From contig JAAYAD010000078.1 of the NCBI GenBank assembly GCA_012719545.1, positions 92,597 to 156,596 on the forward strand: a DNA stretch of 64,000 bases, given 5' to 3'. Shown here in pieces: positions 54,574 through 61,354 of the stretch (the stretch's first letter is position 1; every line of letters begins with the position of its first letter). The notes below the pieces were generated by a model. That model was not told where the DNA came from, ran no database searches, and worked only from the letters and a program-made list of their open reading frames with translations. Made by a program: the position numbers and the translations under genes. The DNA comes from Clostridiaceae bacterium. GTDB taxonomy: Bacteria; Bacillota; Clostridia; DSM-8532.

Positions 54574-56112
54574 ATGGAAAAAGACAAGGCAGTAGTTGAT
54601 TTTTTGCTTTCAGAATGTGACAGACAAGTCTCTGAGTTCACCGGCAAAGAATGCGTCTACGCCCAAAAAGCGCTGGAACTGTCCACATTAATTAATTACG
54701 ATATCGGCATCTATGAAAGCCGTTTTAGACTTGCCCGTTCCTTAGTCTCAAACAATACCGAGCAGGCCATCAAGCATCTTCTTTCCTGTTACAGTATAGC
54801 CCAGACCCTTGATGATAAGCAGCGAATTGCAAGAGCTGCCAATTCTCTGGGCATTGCCTACTATAATCTTGGCATCACCTCCAAAAGTCTTGACAGTTTG
54901 CTTGAAGCTCTCGATATATCCAAGGCAAACGGTTATGTTGACATTGAATGCCGTGTTTACAATAACATATGCAATATTCTTACTGAGCTGGGCGACTATG
55001 AAACTACCTTAAAATATCTGTTTAACCTGCTTCAAAAATGTGATGTGGATGGAAAGGTTGTATTCCCCAAAAGCATAGCATACAGAAATCTGGCCAATAC
55101 ATATTACAATATGGAATCTCTCAAGGAAGCAGAACATTATGCCAACCTTGCCCTCAATGAGGCAACAGAAAACTATAATCCTCAGATTCTTTGCGAGGCT
55201 AACTATATATTGGGGCAGATACGCACTACCCAGAAAAGGCTTGATGAAGCTCGCAGCCTTTTATTATGCGCTTTGAACCTTGCCGAAAAAACCCTTAACG
55301 ATTACTATATGGTTCAAATTCGCATAGACCTTGCCAAACTCTACTGCGAGCTTAATAATCCGGATATTGCCTTTGCCACTATTAAGGATGCCTACAATCT
55401 TGCCTTCCAGCTTGACAATCCTGTATTAAAAAGAAATACCGCTCTGACAATGATAGATATATGCGAGCTCACCAATAATCAACCAATGCTCATTGAGGCG
55501 CTGACGGCCTTTAAGAACATTACACTGGTTCTGGAAAAAGAAAATCTAAAAAACCAGCAAAATTACACCAAATCACAACTCCTGCTTTTCAACCTGAAAA
55601 AGGACAATGAAAGGCTCAGAGCCGAGGTAGAAAGGGATCCCCTTACAGGCTGTTTAAGCAGCCGCACATTCCCGGGAAGAATACTCCAGGCTTTGTCCAC
55701 TTATGGCCAAAAAGGAGCCCTTGTTTTCATGGACATTGATAATCTTAAGGTTGTAAACGATACCTACGGCCATGACGCAGGAGATGAGCTTCTTAAGTCA
55801 TTTGCCCGTGACCTGATGGATGTCATGCCCAAGGAATCATTGAAGATAAGGATTGCCGGAGACGAATTTATAGTCTTTATTCCCAACGTGGGAATAGAAG
55901 AAACAACCCAGGCACTTGACAAGTTAATCAAGGTGCTCTCGGTTCCGCGCCCCATAGGCAAAACAAAAATGCCTGTACTGTTAAGTGCAGGCATAGCCCT
56001 TTATCCCGAACATTCCTCAGATTTGATTAATTTAAGGAAAATGGCGGATGCCGCTATGTATTCGGCAAAGCAGGCAGGTCGCGGCAAGTACAAGATATAC
56101 AGCACCAGCTGA
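54574..56112 (+). CDS. TPR-repeat protein with GGDEF (diguanylate cyclase) domain
   Basis: N-terminal TPR-like repeats; DPLTGCLSSRTFPGR..., FMDIDNLKVVNDTYGHDAGDELLKSFARDL, RIAGDEFIVFIP. Confidence 0.92.
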   Translation: MEKDKAVVDFLLSECDRQVSEFTGKECVYAQKALELSTLINYDIGIYESRFRLARSLVSNNTEQAIKHLLSCYSIAQTLDDKQRIARAANSLGIAYYNLGITSKSLDSLLEALDISKANGYVDIECRVYNNICNILTELGDYETTLKYLFNLLQKCDVDGKVVFPKSIAYRNLANTYYNMESLKEAEHYANLALNEATENYNPQILCEANYILGQIRTTQKRLDEARSLLLCALNLAEKTLNDYYMVQIRIDLAKLYCELNNPDIAFATIKDAYNLAFQLDNPVLKRNTALTMIDICELTNNQPMLIEALTAFKNITLVLEKENLKNQQNYTKSQLLLFNLKKDNERLRAEVERDPLTGCLSSRTFPGRILQALSTYGQKGALVFMDIDNLKVVNDTYGHDAGDELLKSFARDLMDVMPKESLKIRIAGDEFIVFIPNVGIEETTQALDKLIKVLSVPRPIGKTKMPVLLSAGIALYPEHSSDLINLRKMADAAMYSAKQAGRGKYKIYSTS

Positions 56113-56113
56113 A

Positions 56114-56674
56114 TTAACCGTTGTACTTGCTCATGGCACAATCCACAGAAACGCACAGAATGGTGGCTGCAGCAAGAGCCGCCTTTTCTATTGCCGCATT
56201 TACAAGTTTTCTCTCTTCCTGGGAGAAACGGCTTAATACAAAATCAGCCAAATCCATCTTCTCAGGCGGCCTTCCCACTCCTATACGAATCCTTGGAAAA
56301 TCCTCGGTCTTAATCTGGGAAATAACAGAACGCATTCCGTTATGTGTGCCGGCGCTTCCCTTGGCACGTATTCTTATGCGCCCCACATCCAGATCTATAT
56401 CATCGTAAATAACCACTAAGTTCTGGGATTCTATTTTATAGTAATCCAAAATTTCTCTTATAGCCTCGCCGCTGTTGTTCATATATGTCTGGGGCTTAAC
56501 CAGCATTACCTTCTTGCCTTGTATAATACCTTCTGCCACAAGGGCATTGTGCTTGTATTTAAAGTTATTAAGCCTGTAAAGAGCGGCTAAATAATCAATG
56601 GTGTCAAATCCTACATTATGGCGGGTGCCGTCATATTTAGGCCCCATATTACCTAAACCAGCCAGAACAAACAT
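56114..56674 (-). CDS. pth: Peptidyl-tRNA hydrolase
   Basis: AGLGNMGPKYDGTRHNVGFDTIDYLA; GSAGTHNGMRSVI; ATG 56674 after GGAGG. Confidence 0.96.
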   Translation of the reverse strand: MFVLAGLGNMGPKYDGTRHNVGFDTIDYLAALYRLNNFKYKHNALVAEGIIQGKKVMLVKPQTYMNNSGEAIREILDYYKIESQNLVVIYDDIDLDVGRIRIRAKGSAGTHNGMRSVISQIKTEDFPRIRIGVGRPPEKMDLADFVLSRFSQEERKLVNAAIEKAALAAATILCVSVDCAMSKYNG

Positions 56675-56754: not shown

Positions 56755-57717
56755 TTATTGCTGAGTAAACAAGGTAGAAATTGAAATGTCCCCGTAAATT
56801 CTTTCAATGGCCTCTGCAAAAACCTCGGCAACTGAAAGGGAAACAATCTTGCTTATCCTCTTCTCTTTAGGAAGAGAGATGGTGTTCAATGTAACCAATT
56901 CCTTGATGCATGAAGTTCTGATTCTGTCTATGGCAGGACCGGACAGAACTCCGTGGGTACAGCATGCATAAACTTCAGTTGCTCCAATGTCGCTTAAGGC
57001 ACTGGCAGCGTTAACAATGGTACCACCGGTATCTATCATATCATCCACAAGGATAACTGTCTTGCCTCTGACATCACCAATAATATTCATTATTTCGCAG
57101 ACATTGGCCTTGGGTCTTCTTTTATCTATTATTGCAAGGGGAACGTCAAGCTTCTCGGCAAATTTTCTTGACCTTCCAACGCTTCCTATATCGGGAGAAA
57201 CAACTACCACATTATCAAGCTTATTCTCAAATTTTTTCAGAAAATACTGGGCAAGTATAGGAGCACCCAACAGATGATCCACTGGGATGTCAAAAAAGCC
57301 CTGCAGCTGTGGCGCGTGAAGATCCATGGTCAAAACTCTGTCGGCACCTGCAGTGGTTATAAGGTTTGCCACAAGCTTTGCTGAAATGGGATCTCTGGCC
57401 TTTGCCTTTCTGTCCTGACGGGCATATCCGAAATAAGGCATTACCGCTGTGATACGGCCTGCCGATGCACGCTTTAATGCATCAATCAAAATCAGCAGTT
57501 CTACAAGGTTGTCATTTACCGGTGTGCAAGTGGACTGGATTATGAAAACATCGCTGCCTCTTACCACTTCATTGATACTGATGGCAATTTCGCCGTCAGA
57601 AAATCTTGAAACCACCGATGCTCCAAGAGGCAACCCCACCTTGGCTGCTATTTCTTCAGCCAGTTCTCTGTTTGAGTTACCCGCAAAAATTTTAATATCT
57701 TTCCCGTGAAGATTCAT
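56755..57717 (-). CDS. prs: Ribose-phosphate pyrophosphokinase
   Basis: [44 protein letters not shown]. Confidence 0.98.
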
Positions 57718-57749: not shown

Positions 57750-59015
57750 TCATTTTTTATCAAGACCTTTTTCTCTAACCCAGTTTTCTTTTATGGTCTG
57801 CCGGCTTCTTGCTATAGCCAGCGAATATGCGGGCACTTCGTCAGTTATGGTTGAACCTGCAGCTATGTATGCATGTTCATTTACAACAACCGGTGAAACC
57901 AGATTTACATTGCAGCCAATAAATGCATTATCGCCCACAACTGTTCTGTGTTTCTTCCTGCCGTCGTAGTTGACTACAACGCCCCCGCACCCTATATTGA
58001 CATTCTTTCCTATATCAGCATCGCCAACATAGGATAAGTGAGATACTTTTGTCTTATCACCAATATTGGAATTCTTAACTTCAACAAAATCGCCGATTTT
58101 GACATTCTGGCCAATTTTTGAACCAGGCCTTATATAAGCAAAGGGTCCAACATTGGTGTTATCTCCTACTTGCGACTGTGTCATAACCGAATTTTCAAAG
58201 CGAACATTATTTCCTATAAGGCCGTTTTCAATCCTTGAATTGGGTCCTATTACGCAATTCTCACCTATAACAGTTTCACCTTCAAGGATGGTTCCGGGGT
58301 AAATTACAGTGTCCCTGCCAATTTTAACATTCTTATCTATCATGCAGGTTTCAGGAAGGTGGAATGTAACCCCGTTTTCCATATGCTTATTGATAATACG
58401 CCTTAAAATAACGTGCTCTGCCTCGTTAAGCTGTTTTCTGTCGTTAACCTTCAATAATTCCTGAGTATCCTTTACAACATACGCGCCGGTCTTATTTCCT
58501 CTTAATACAGCTTCATTTATTATATCCGATAAATCAACGGTTTCATCGGCATTATTTCTTAATTCGGAAAGTATTTTGCTTAAAGTTTGGACTTCTAAAA
58601 AACAGATTTCTGAATTTTGGAAGCCTGTATCTTCCTTATCGGTCAGAAATGTAATCAGGTTACCCTGCTGCTTGTGATACTCATATGCTGACTTGAGAGT
58701 TTCCCCGGTTATAGCGGGAGTATCAACGCCAAGAACAAGAATTGTACCTTCATTGCATAAATTAAGCCCTTCAAATATGGCTTGTCCAATACAGGGCTTT
58801 TCGTTTACTAATAATACTGAATTCTCAGGTAATTCTGCGTTTTCTATATTATTCCTTATAAAAATAGCAAAAGCTTCTGAGCCTGCTTCTTTAGAAGCAT
58901 CTATAGCATAATCCAGAAGCGTCGAGCCGCATATTTTATGAAAAGCTTTATCACAGGATGAATTCATCATGGTCCCATCTGCTTGTGCAAGGATTATCGA
59001 AACCAGCTGCCCCAT
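57750..59015 (-). CDS. glmU: GlmU-like protein: intact acetyltransferase LbH domain, degenerate uridylyltransferase domain
   Basis: Hexapeptide repeats and VEVKNSNIGDKTKVSHLSYVGDADIGKNVNIGCGGVVVNYDGRKKHRT; N-terminal SIILAQADGTMMNSSCDKAFH. ATG 59015 after AAGGAGG. Confidence 0.9.
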   Translation of the reverse strand: MGQLVSIILAQADGTMMNSSCDKAFHKICGSTLLDYAIDASKEAGSEAFAIFIRNNIENAELPENSVLLVNEKPCIGQAIFEGLNLCNEGTILVLGVDTPAITGETLKSAYEYHKQQGNLITFLTDKEDTGFQNSEICFLEVQTLSKILSELRNNADETVDLSDIINEAVLRGNKTGAYVVKDTQELLKVNDRKQLNEAEHVILRRIINKHMENGVTFHLPETCMIDKNVKIGRDTVIYPGTILEGETVIGENCVIGPNSRIENGLIGNNVRFENSVMTQSQVGDNTNVGPFAYIRPGSKIGQNVKIGDFVEVKNSNIGDKTKVSHLSYVGDADIGKNVNIGCGGVVVNYDGRKKHRTVVGDNAFIGCNVNLVSPVVVNEHAYIAAGSTITDEVPAYSLAIARSRQTIKENWVREKGLDKK

Positions 59016-59282
59016 GAAAATATTATCCTCCTTAACGAGTAAATCCATTTTTCAAAACCATTCTCTCATGTTTGCCCTTGTAATGCAATTGTCATTTTAG
59101 ACATTTTAATTATTACATAATTGTTATATATATTTAACCCAGGAATTTATTTCTAGTTTCTGGCTTATTTGGCCAAAAAAAGAATCCCTCGGCTATGCCT
59201 CAGGATATAATGCATTTGTTAATGGTCTGTAATAAATTTTAATGTCAGGCACTCCGAAAAGGAGTGGCTAAAACCATATGTA

Positions 59283-59573
59283 TTATTCCTTCACTGTTGT
59301 ACCTGCAGCTTCTTCTTCGGCCAACATGGACTGATACTTTTCCAGTATGGCGTTTTGAATCTTGTTCCTTGCATCTGCATTGATTGGGTGTGCAATATCT
59401 CTAAACTCACCTGAGGGAGTTTTGCGGCTTGGCATTGCAATAAACAATCCACCCTGGCTTTCAATGATTTTGATGTCGTGAACAACAAATTCATTGTCAA
59501 ATGTTACCGACACTACTGCTTTCATTTTGCCTTCAGCTTCAACTTTGCGAATTCTAATGTCTGTAATCTCCAT
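59283..59573 (-). CDS. spoVG: Septation/regulatory protein SpoVG
   Basis: [65 protein letters not shown]. Confidence 0.97.
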
Positions 59574-59944
59574 CTTAGTAGCCCACCTTCCGATAATCAA
59601 TTGTAGTTTTTGTATCATCTTATAATTTCGCCAAAAATTCCAAAATTCCTTCTTTATCCCTAAAAAAAATTAGGAATTATTATAAATTAAAATATTCAGA
59701 GAAAATATTATATTGGTAAAATCAACAAAGCATTATTTTTTACAATAAGTATAACAGTATTTTATTTTTTTAGATACTGGCAAATTAAAAGTGTGTATCA
59801 TAAAATTGGCAATAGGCATACTTATCATATGGGCCTTTATTGAAATCAAATTTTATTTAGAGACAGAACAAAATAGAAGCAATATTGTTAAAAATCTTGT
59901 GCTTGGTATATAATCTTAGCTGGATATTTTAAAAGGAGTATAAA

Positions 59945-61354
59945 ATGGATAGTTTTTTTACTTTGGACAGCAGCAATCTTACCATACACATGGTGGGAAT
60001 AGGCGGAATAAGCATGAGCGGACTTGCAGAGATACTCATGCGCAAGAATGTTAAAATAACAGGCTCGGACATAAACCAGTCAGAAATAACAGAAAAGCTA
60101 AAAAGCATGGGAGCAGTGATTTATCCTTCCCATGACCCTCAGAACATAAAGGATCAGAGCCTGGTGGTATATACAGCCGCGGTAAATAAGGATAACCCCG
60201 AGCTTGTTGAAGCAAGAAAGCGGGGTATACCTGTTATTGAGCGTGCCGACCTTTTAGGCGCCATTATGGATCAGTTTAAGGAAAGCATAGCGGTATCAGG
60301 CACCCACGGAAAAACAACAACCACCTCCATGATTTCATCCATAATTATAGAAGCCGGCCTTGATCCCACAATACATGTGGGCGGCATTCTCGATCTTATC
60401 GGCGGGAATACCCGTATAGGAAACAGCTCATGGTTCATAGCAGAAGCTTGCGAATACAAGAACAGCTTTTTAAAGTTCCGTCCTTATCTGGCAGTTGTCC
60501 TTAATATAGATGAGGACCATCTGGACTTTTTCAAGGATATAGATGATATAAGGCATTCCTTTGAGGCTTTTTTGTCCAACGTGAAAAATCCCGGCTTCAT
60601 AGTCCTCAATATGGATGACCCTCAAACCAAAACTCTTTCAAAATCACTTGCAAGGACAGTTGTAACATATGGGGTCAACACCCCGGGTGTGGACTGGACT
60701 GCTGAGAATATTGCCTTTAAAAACGGATATGCAAGCTTTGACGCTATATACAAGAATGAGTTCTGGGCAAGGATAACTCTCTCGGTACCAGGAAGCCACA
60801 ATGTTTCAAATGCCCTTGCAGCCATTGCCGCATGCCATTGCCTTGGAGTTCCCAAAAACGCAATTGTAAGAGGCATAGAACACTATAAAGGTATCCACAG
60901 GCGCCTTGAGGATAAAGGTACTGTTCATAATATCAGGGTTATGGATGACTATGCCCATCACCCAACGGAAATTCAGGCCACTTTAAGCGCTGCAAGAGCC
61001 CTTGCCTCGGGAAAGCTGATTTGTATATTCCAACCTCACACCTATACAAGGACATATGAGCTTCTGGACGACTTTTCCCGCTCATTCGCCCTCGCGGATA
61101 CGGTGGTGGTAACAGATATCTACTCTGCCCGTGAGAAAGATACCGGCCTTATCCACTCCCGCACATTAACAGACAGGATTAATCTCCAGACCGGAAATGC
61201 CGTGTACATTTCCAAATTTGAGGATATTTCCGATTTCCTTATGGAAAATGCACAGCCAGGTGATCTTGTTCTTACCATGGGTGCAGGCGATGTCTATAAG
61301 GTTGGGGAAATTTTCCTTGAGTCCAGGCGCAGTCAGAGTCTGGTATCCCTTTAA
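59945..61354 (+). CDS. murC: UDP-N-acetylmuramate--L-alanine ligase
   Basis: HMVGIGGISMSGLAEIL; SGTHGKTTTTSMIS; DDYAHHPTEIQATL. Confidence 0.97.
   Translation: MDSFFTLDSSNLTIHMVGIGGISMSGLAEILMRKNVKITGSDINQSEITEKLKSMGAVIYPSHDPQNIKDQSLVVYTAAVNKDNPELVEARKRGIPVIERADLLGAIMDQFKESIAVSGTHGKTTTTSMISSIIIEAGLDPTIHVGGILDLIGGNTRIGNSSWFIAEACEYKNSFLKFRPYLAVVLNIDEDHLDFFKDIDDIRHSFEAFLSNVKNPGFIVLNMDDPQTKTLSKSLARTVVTYGVNTPGVDWTAENIAFKNGYASFDAIYKNEFWARITLSVPGSHNVSNALAAIAACHCLGVPKNAIVRGIEHYKGIHRRLEDKGTVHNIRVMDDYAHHPTEIQATLSAARALASGKLICIFQPHTYTRTYELLDDFSRSFALADTVVVTDIYSAREKDTGLIHSRTLTDRINLQTGNAVYISKFEDISDFLMENAQPGDLVLTMGAGDVYKVGEIFLESRRSQSLVSL

Follow-up and report, generated by a model that had tools for sequence, protein, structure and literature searches.

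Loss of the uridylyltransferase active site of GlmU in a clostridial genus and a candidate enzyme for the missing step

Introduction

The synthesis of UDP-GlcNAc is essential, and GlmU, an antibiotic target, is a textbook bifunctional enzyme. The stretch of DNA analyzed here, called the window, comprises 64,000 nucleotides from a Clostridiaceae bacterium (GenBank assembly GCA_012719545.1, contig JAAYAD010000078.1, positions 92,597 to 156,596). It carries a glmU gene whose product has lost the active site of its uridylyltransferase domain. The window also contains murC, a gene for peptidoglycan-precursor synthesis beyond UDP-GlcNAc, so this part of the pathway is encoded in the genome. Which enzyme, then, converts GlcNAc-1-P and UTP into UDP-GlcNAc in this organism?

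The GlmU protein encoded in the window

The open reading frame of glmU spans positions 57750-59048 of the minus strand, opens at 59048 and comprises 432 aa. The likely start, predicted from a preceding Shine-Dalgarno sequence, is the ATG at 59015 (Table 1), in agreement with the coordinates of an earlier note on this DNA. That note had described a GlmU with an apparently inactivated N-terminal active site, an intact acetyltransferase half, and the gene order spoVG-glmU-prs-pth. All three descriptions hold. The neighbors were identified by profile matches, and all catalytic residues checked in the C-domain are present. The strings LAQADGTMMNSSCDKAFH, NEKPCIGQA, DTGFQNSEICFLE, ETVDLSD, VEVKNS, SHLSYVGDADIG, and NYDGRKKHRT were all found in the ORF translation. 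Convergent with pth, a gene at 54574-56109 encodes a protein with tetratricopeptide-like and GGDEF-like parts (sequence reading only); the two genes end within a few bases of each other, and a comparable gene lies at the equivalent place in L007.

Table 1. Positions of the glmU features and neighboring genes in the window
Feature	Position	Strand	Basis or remark
glmU with decayed N-terminal domain	57750..59015	minus	421 aa from ATG at 59015; TIGR01173 382.6 bits
Shine-Dalgarno sequence TAAGGAGGAT of glmU	59026..59035	minus	upstream of ATG 59015; read from sequence
Decayed uridylyltransferase (pseudoenzyme) domain	58437..59015	minus	residues 12-204 of 432-aa ORF; Pfam NTP_transf_3 E 1e-9
Nucleotide-binding loop remnant LAQADGTMMNSSCDK	58947..58991	minus	alignment with intact GlmU
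Catalytic Arg to Met at residue 27	58968-58970	minus	alignment with intact GlmU
NEKPCIGQA replacing QxxLGTGHA motif	58779..58805	minus	alignment with intact GlmU
DTGFQNSEICFLE, deletion site of GYGRI...VEHKD...EIN	58593..58631	minus	junction 58616/58617
Intact acetyltransferase, left-handed beta-helix domain	57753..58436	minus	residues 205-432; profile matches and residue alignment
spoVG, upstream neighbor	59286..59618	minus	NCBIfam NF009749
prs, downstream neighbor	56758..57717	minus	NCBIfam
pth, downstream neighbor	56117..56674	minus	TIGR00447
murC, divergent, beyond spoVG	59945..61354	plus	TIGR01082 515 bits

The alignment with intact GlmU clearly revealed the losses in the N-domain. The LAAG-x-G-T-R-M loop reads LAQADGTMM, with M27 as the equivalent of R18. 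N82 stands in the place of Q76, and G81, T82, and H84 are lost. A deletion between residues 144 and 145 has removed approximately 31 residues, from GYGRI through EIN. Thus, the protein fails two tests for GlmU features, namely the nucleotide loop LxxGxGTRMxS...K with the catalytic Arg and the uridine-binding QxxLGTGHA motif together with the sugar-binding GYGRI...VE...EIN segment. The equivalents of K25 (K34), D105 (D109), and N227 (N202) are still present. A third test, a beta-helix with the catalytic His and the residues binding CoA and GlcN-1-P, is passed, with R333, K351, H363, Y366, N377, N386, and Y387 (numbered as in E. coli) all conserved.

Pfam returned a weak match for the NTP transferase domain and a strong one for the hexapeptide helix, and the match to TIGR01173 broke into two parts around the absent middle of the N-domain. 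Carried by the C-domain, the TIGR01173 score of 382.6 bits still exceeds the cut-off of 366.85 bits. The protein is consequently labeled bifunctional, and annotation hides the loss. In the AlphaFold model, predicted with moderate confidence (pLDDT 74), strands and helices alternate as expected for the core. GlmU structures ranked first in the Foldseek search with this model, with whole-chain rmsd values mostly above 10 Å, a probable consequence of uncertainty in how the two modeled domains are placed relative to each other.

Decay of the N-terminal domain within the genus

The comparison set consisted of 13 further species of the window's genus. A decayed GlmU N-domain was found in 11 of them, and GlmU is intact in the remaining two (G004 and G009) and in the sister genera g2, g3, g6, and g7. 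The co-linear decayed orthologues in 11 further species rule out a frameshift, sequencing, or assembly error; a sequencing or frameshift error was what the earlier note had named as refuting its observation. R18 and the G140-E154 segment are absent from all 12 decayed proteins of the genus, and the other N-domain sites drift; the acetyltransferase residues are invariant across the same 12. The C-domain tree would allow the decay to have arisen once in the genus, although its support is weak (57/43).

For protein pairs with a C-domain identity of 0.70-0.75 (about 0.73), the mean N-domain identity was 0.30 in decayed versus 0.62 in intact GlmU. In close pairs, NG86 dN/dS values amounted to 0.15-0.24 for the decayed N-domain, 0.05-0.08 for the adjoining C-domain, and 0.08-0.18 for intact N-domains; they are approximate, with dS often near or above 1. 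The decayed domain is in frame in all 12 species and contains the conserved stretches ICGxxxxSYxI, TLKxAYxYH, and SxICF. Judging from its dN/dS, the domain evolves fast and under relaxed selection, yet remains under purifying selection, indicating that a folded remnant is being kept.

A candidate uridylyltransferase outside the window

With an inactive N-domain, the earlier note had reasoned, a second uridylyltransferase would be needed elsewhere in the genome. Our search of the N-type matches in the genome yielded neither a second GlmU nor a stand-alone GlmU N-domain, and the eukaryote-type UDPGP pyrophosphorylase profile PF01704 had no match in the genome, a result without weight since the control gave none either. 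The survey of NTP transferases returned look-alikes of common sugar and isoprenoid enzymes and a single unplaced protein of ~308 aa, P0001. The look-alikes, set aside as candidates, resemble IspD, RfbF, RmlA, GalU, GlgC, and GlgD, as read from their sequences without an annotation search.

P0001 is a stand-alone nucleotidyltransferase encoded at G000:C96:4523-5446 on the minus strand (L137). Contig C96 belongs to this genome, as its gene neighborhood is shared with G010 and G013. The solo gene is unlinked to glmU or other cell-wall genes. P0001 matches the PDB entry 3pnn with an E value of 2e-77 over ~302 residues, nearly the full length, and no NCBIfam equivalog covers its family. Invariant columns of the family are G12, G14, R16, K21, Q80, G100, T101, H103, D122, and D123. 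P0001 meets the test for a GT-A UDP-sugar pyrophosphorylase, featuring the GxGSR loop, the Lys, a GTGHA-like motif, and the metal-binding Asp. The family aligned with GlmU N-domains over most of the length (hhalign 96%), with R18, GTGHA, the metal Asp D105, E154, and the EYxL motif in or near register. The search thus supplied what the note had called for: P0001 keeps the GlmU N-domain motifs and is a strong candidate for the missing GlcNAc-1-P uridylyltransferase, a task that it very probably performs, with both activity and substrate inferred.

Outside the genus, the P0001-family gene adjoins a gene for N-acetylhexosamine 1-kinase (NahK; PDB match with E 6e-94) in 18 of 31 loci, often together with galE (TIGR01179), and adjoins nagB in two. 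The order nucleotidyltransferase-nahK-galE is the layout of a UDP-GlcNAc/UDP-GalNAc salvage operon and suggests UDP-HexNAc pyrophosphorylase activity, an assignment that rests mainly on this context. In the genus, G007, G008, and G013 have this operon, with NahK and GalE both confirmed, plus a second, solo copy. The remaining carriers within the genus, this genome among them, have the solo copy only, and no NahK turned up in any other genus member; P0001 is thus without a salvage kinase feeding it. The retained acetyltransferase of GlmU makes exactly its presumed substrate.

In the tree, the solo copies of the ten species form a group of their own, distinct from the operon copies, with moderate support (87/79; operon copies 100/98), and the branching among the solo copies largely tracks GlmU. 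The genes of g4 and g5, which belong to the window's family, branch elsewhere in the tree, away from the genus copies. Hence, the P0001-family gene entered the window's family at least twice, and each entry went together with the loss of GlmU or its N-domain. In G007 and G008, the operon is preceded by a gene for a 642-aa protein (L197:1862-3787 and L198:1501-3426, respectively; DUF4838 in G007), possibly a glycosidase feeding the operon.

Co-occurrence of the P0001 family with GlmU loss

Within the genus, the P0001 gene is present in 10 of the 12 species with decayed GlmU and in neither of the two with intact GlmU. For the two decayed species without a copy, G005 and G011, genome completeness is 86% and 81%, which does not prove that incompleteness accounts for the absence. 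Among 197 relatives, an intact bifunctional GlmU is missing in 53 of 71 carriers of the family versus 39 of 126 non-carriers (Fisher p 3.6e-9). The association persisted in a family-stratified Cochran-Mantel-Haenszel test (p 8e-5), by family majority (p 1e-3), and with the window's family excluded (p 4e-5); the stratified signal comes mostly from the window's own family. Both the gene and an intact GlmU occur in 18 genomes. The 39 genomes with neither, some of which have a separate N-domain, imply that other replacements exist and that there is more than one solution. In a phylum-wide repeat, few genomes outside the class carried the family (8 of 399). A GlmU above the cut-off is missing, in addition to this genome, from at least four of these eight carriers (G033, G121, G146, and G560), compared with 22 of the 391 others; given the small numbers, this comparison is supportive only.

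Further lineages combining the gene with GlmU decay or loss include f6, f8, f12, f18, f26 (397-aa GlmU), f42, and f57. In the window's family, g5 carries the gene beside a full-length GlmU that has lost the Arg, and g4 carries it without any GlmU. The g4 genomes G016, G022, and G026 also lack the acetyltransferase half (best TIGR01173 match E 8e-19 or weaker), and in G016 the P0001-family gene lies beside galE.

Three other situations were observed. In f40 (G070, G097, G124, G148, G171, and G193), f7, f15, f58, f33, and f35, GlmU lacks an intact N-domain or is absent and no P0001-family gene is present, so that another uridylyltransferase or UDP-GlcNAc source would be needed. The GlmU of G036 (f6; L174/L063) keeps the equivalents of R18, K25, D105, and N227 but is missing the G140-E154 segment, a state that may mark an early phase of the same decay; its P0001-family gene lies beside nahK. 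Finally, G052, G116, G141, G185, and G191 encode GlmU N-domain-like proteins of 259-335 aa with most of the C-domain missing, and the two GlmU activities are apparently split into separate genes.

Discussion

We consider it probable that P0001, with its inferred activity, has displaced the uridylyltransferase of GlmU non-orthologously and left a monofunctional acetyltransferase with a pseudoenzyme domain. In this clade, GlmU would act as glucosamine-1-phosphate acetyltransferase only, its N-domain being a remnant without catalytic activity that is retained as a folded portion of the protein. The conversion of GlcNAc-1-P and UTP into UDP-GlcNAc would be performed by the separate GT-A-type P0001. 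The latter would derive from amino-sugar salvage operons, in which it would convert GlcNAc-1-P or GalNAc-1-P to UDP-HexNAc. A solo paralogue, split from nahK, may have taken over the de novo step, relaxing the selection on the GlmU N-domain. Directly observed are the decay of this domain and its spread over the genus, the retention of the acetyltransferase, and the motifs, co-occurrence, and operon context of the candidate. The catalytic activity and substrate of P0001, UDP-GlcNAc synthesis in this cell, and the arrival of P0001 before the decay are inferred. Against displacement speak the missing copies in G005 and G011, the genomes with neither or with both, the unlinked position of the solo gene, and the retention of the K25, D105, and N227 equivalents in the window's own copy of GlmU.

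GlmR (YvcK) represents another possible source. In Listeria, it converts GlcNAc-1-P and UTP into UDP-GlcNAc in vitro and serves as an accessory uridylyltransferase (PMC10128056). GlmR is encoded in this genome (G000:C87:41712-42647) beside murB, rapZ, and whiA, and the CofD-related YvcK profile TIGR01826 was matched at L202:3704-4960 with 402.8 bits. It is, however, equally present in relatives with intact GlmU, including G004, which does not explain who lost the domain. Moreover, it is absent from seven P0001-family carriers without an intact bifunctional GlmU (G033, G036, G038, G039, G042, G044, and G049). GlmR may contribute to the UDP-GlcNAc supply, but we think it unlikely that GlmR made the N-domain dispensable. 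GalU-like and similar enzymes are likewise present alike in intact and decayed species.

Compatible with displacement by P0001 is the idea that the pseudoenzyme domain has acquired a regulatory or docking role, for example, recruiting a separate uridylyltransferase to the GlmU trimer. The in-frame retention in 12 of 12 species, the conserved stretches, and dN/dS values well below 1 would fit such a role. A pure folding scaffold would give the same conservation, however, and other lineages have shortened the domain or dropped it altogether, which leaves the proposal doubtful. Very improbable is a remodeled N-domain that still acts as a uridylyltransferase, or on another substrate, through a different catalytic arrangement: purifying selection continues, the core fold is predicted to persist, and K25, D105, and N227 are kept in the window's copy, but the 12 decayed species vary at the site of D105 (D, E, or N) and at that of N227 (D, Q, H, K, or N), neither R18 nor LGTGHA has a new invariant motif in its place, and comparable decay, up to complete loss, occurs in other families.

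Beyond the genus, we lean, with somewhat less assurance than for the window's clade, toward repeated loss of the GlmU uridylyltransferase across Clostridia, with a 3pnn-family UDP-HexNAc pyrophosphorylase from NahK/GalE operons taking over in a large share of cases and leaving the acetyltransferase with a pseudoenzyme domain. If displacement, the best reading, is correct, this is a clear example of how a fused enzyme can lose one of its halves once a salvage enzyme has displaced it. Inhibitors of the GlmU uridylyltransferase site are then predicted to be ineffective on many Clostridia. For the missing activity, the analysis offers a specific gene family that is amenable to testing, and it suggests a function for the orphan structure 3pnn. 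In the open-access literature, we found no report of this N-domain loss or of a function for 3pnn.

Comparison with known systems

Compared with the bifunctional GlmU of S. pneumoniae, S. aureus, and E. coli (TIGR01173), the window's GlmU has the same locus, domain order, and intact acetyltransferase half, and GlmU structures are the best fold matches of its model; it differs in the lost uridylyltransferase active site and the deletion in the N-domain. GlmR is, as proposed here for P0001, a second UDP-GlcNAc source beside GlmU (PMC10128056), but it is an unrelated CofD-type protein whose distribution does not track GlmU decay. The structure matched by P0001, 3pnn, belongs to an uncharacterized nucleotidyltransferase family, and its title ("Conserved domain protein") names no function. 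AmgK and MurU form a peptidoglycan-recycling pair in Pseudomonas, consisting of an APH-fold anomeric kinase and a sugar-1-phosphate uridylyltransferase, in which MurU makes UDP-MurNAc. The P0001 family resembles this recycling pair of Pseudomonas (PMC5371407) in the coupling of kinase and nucleotidyltransferase. Its partner kinase, however, is of the NahK type, and P0001 as a solo copy stands without one.
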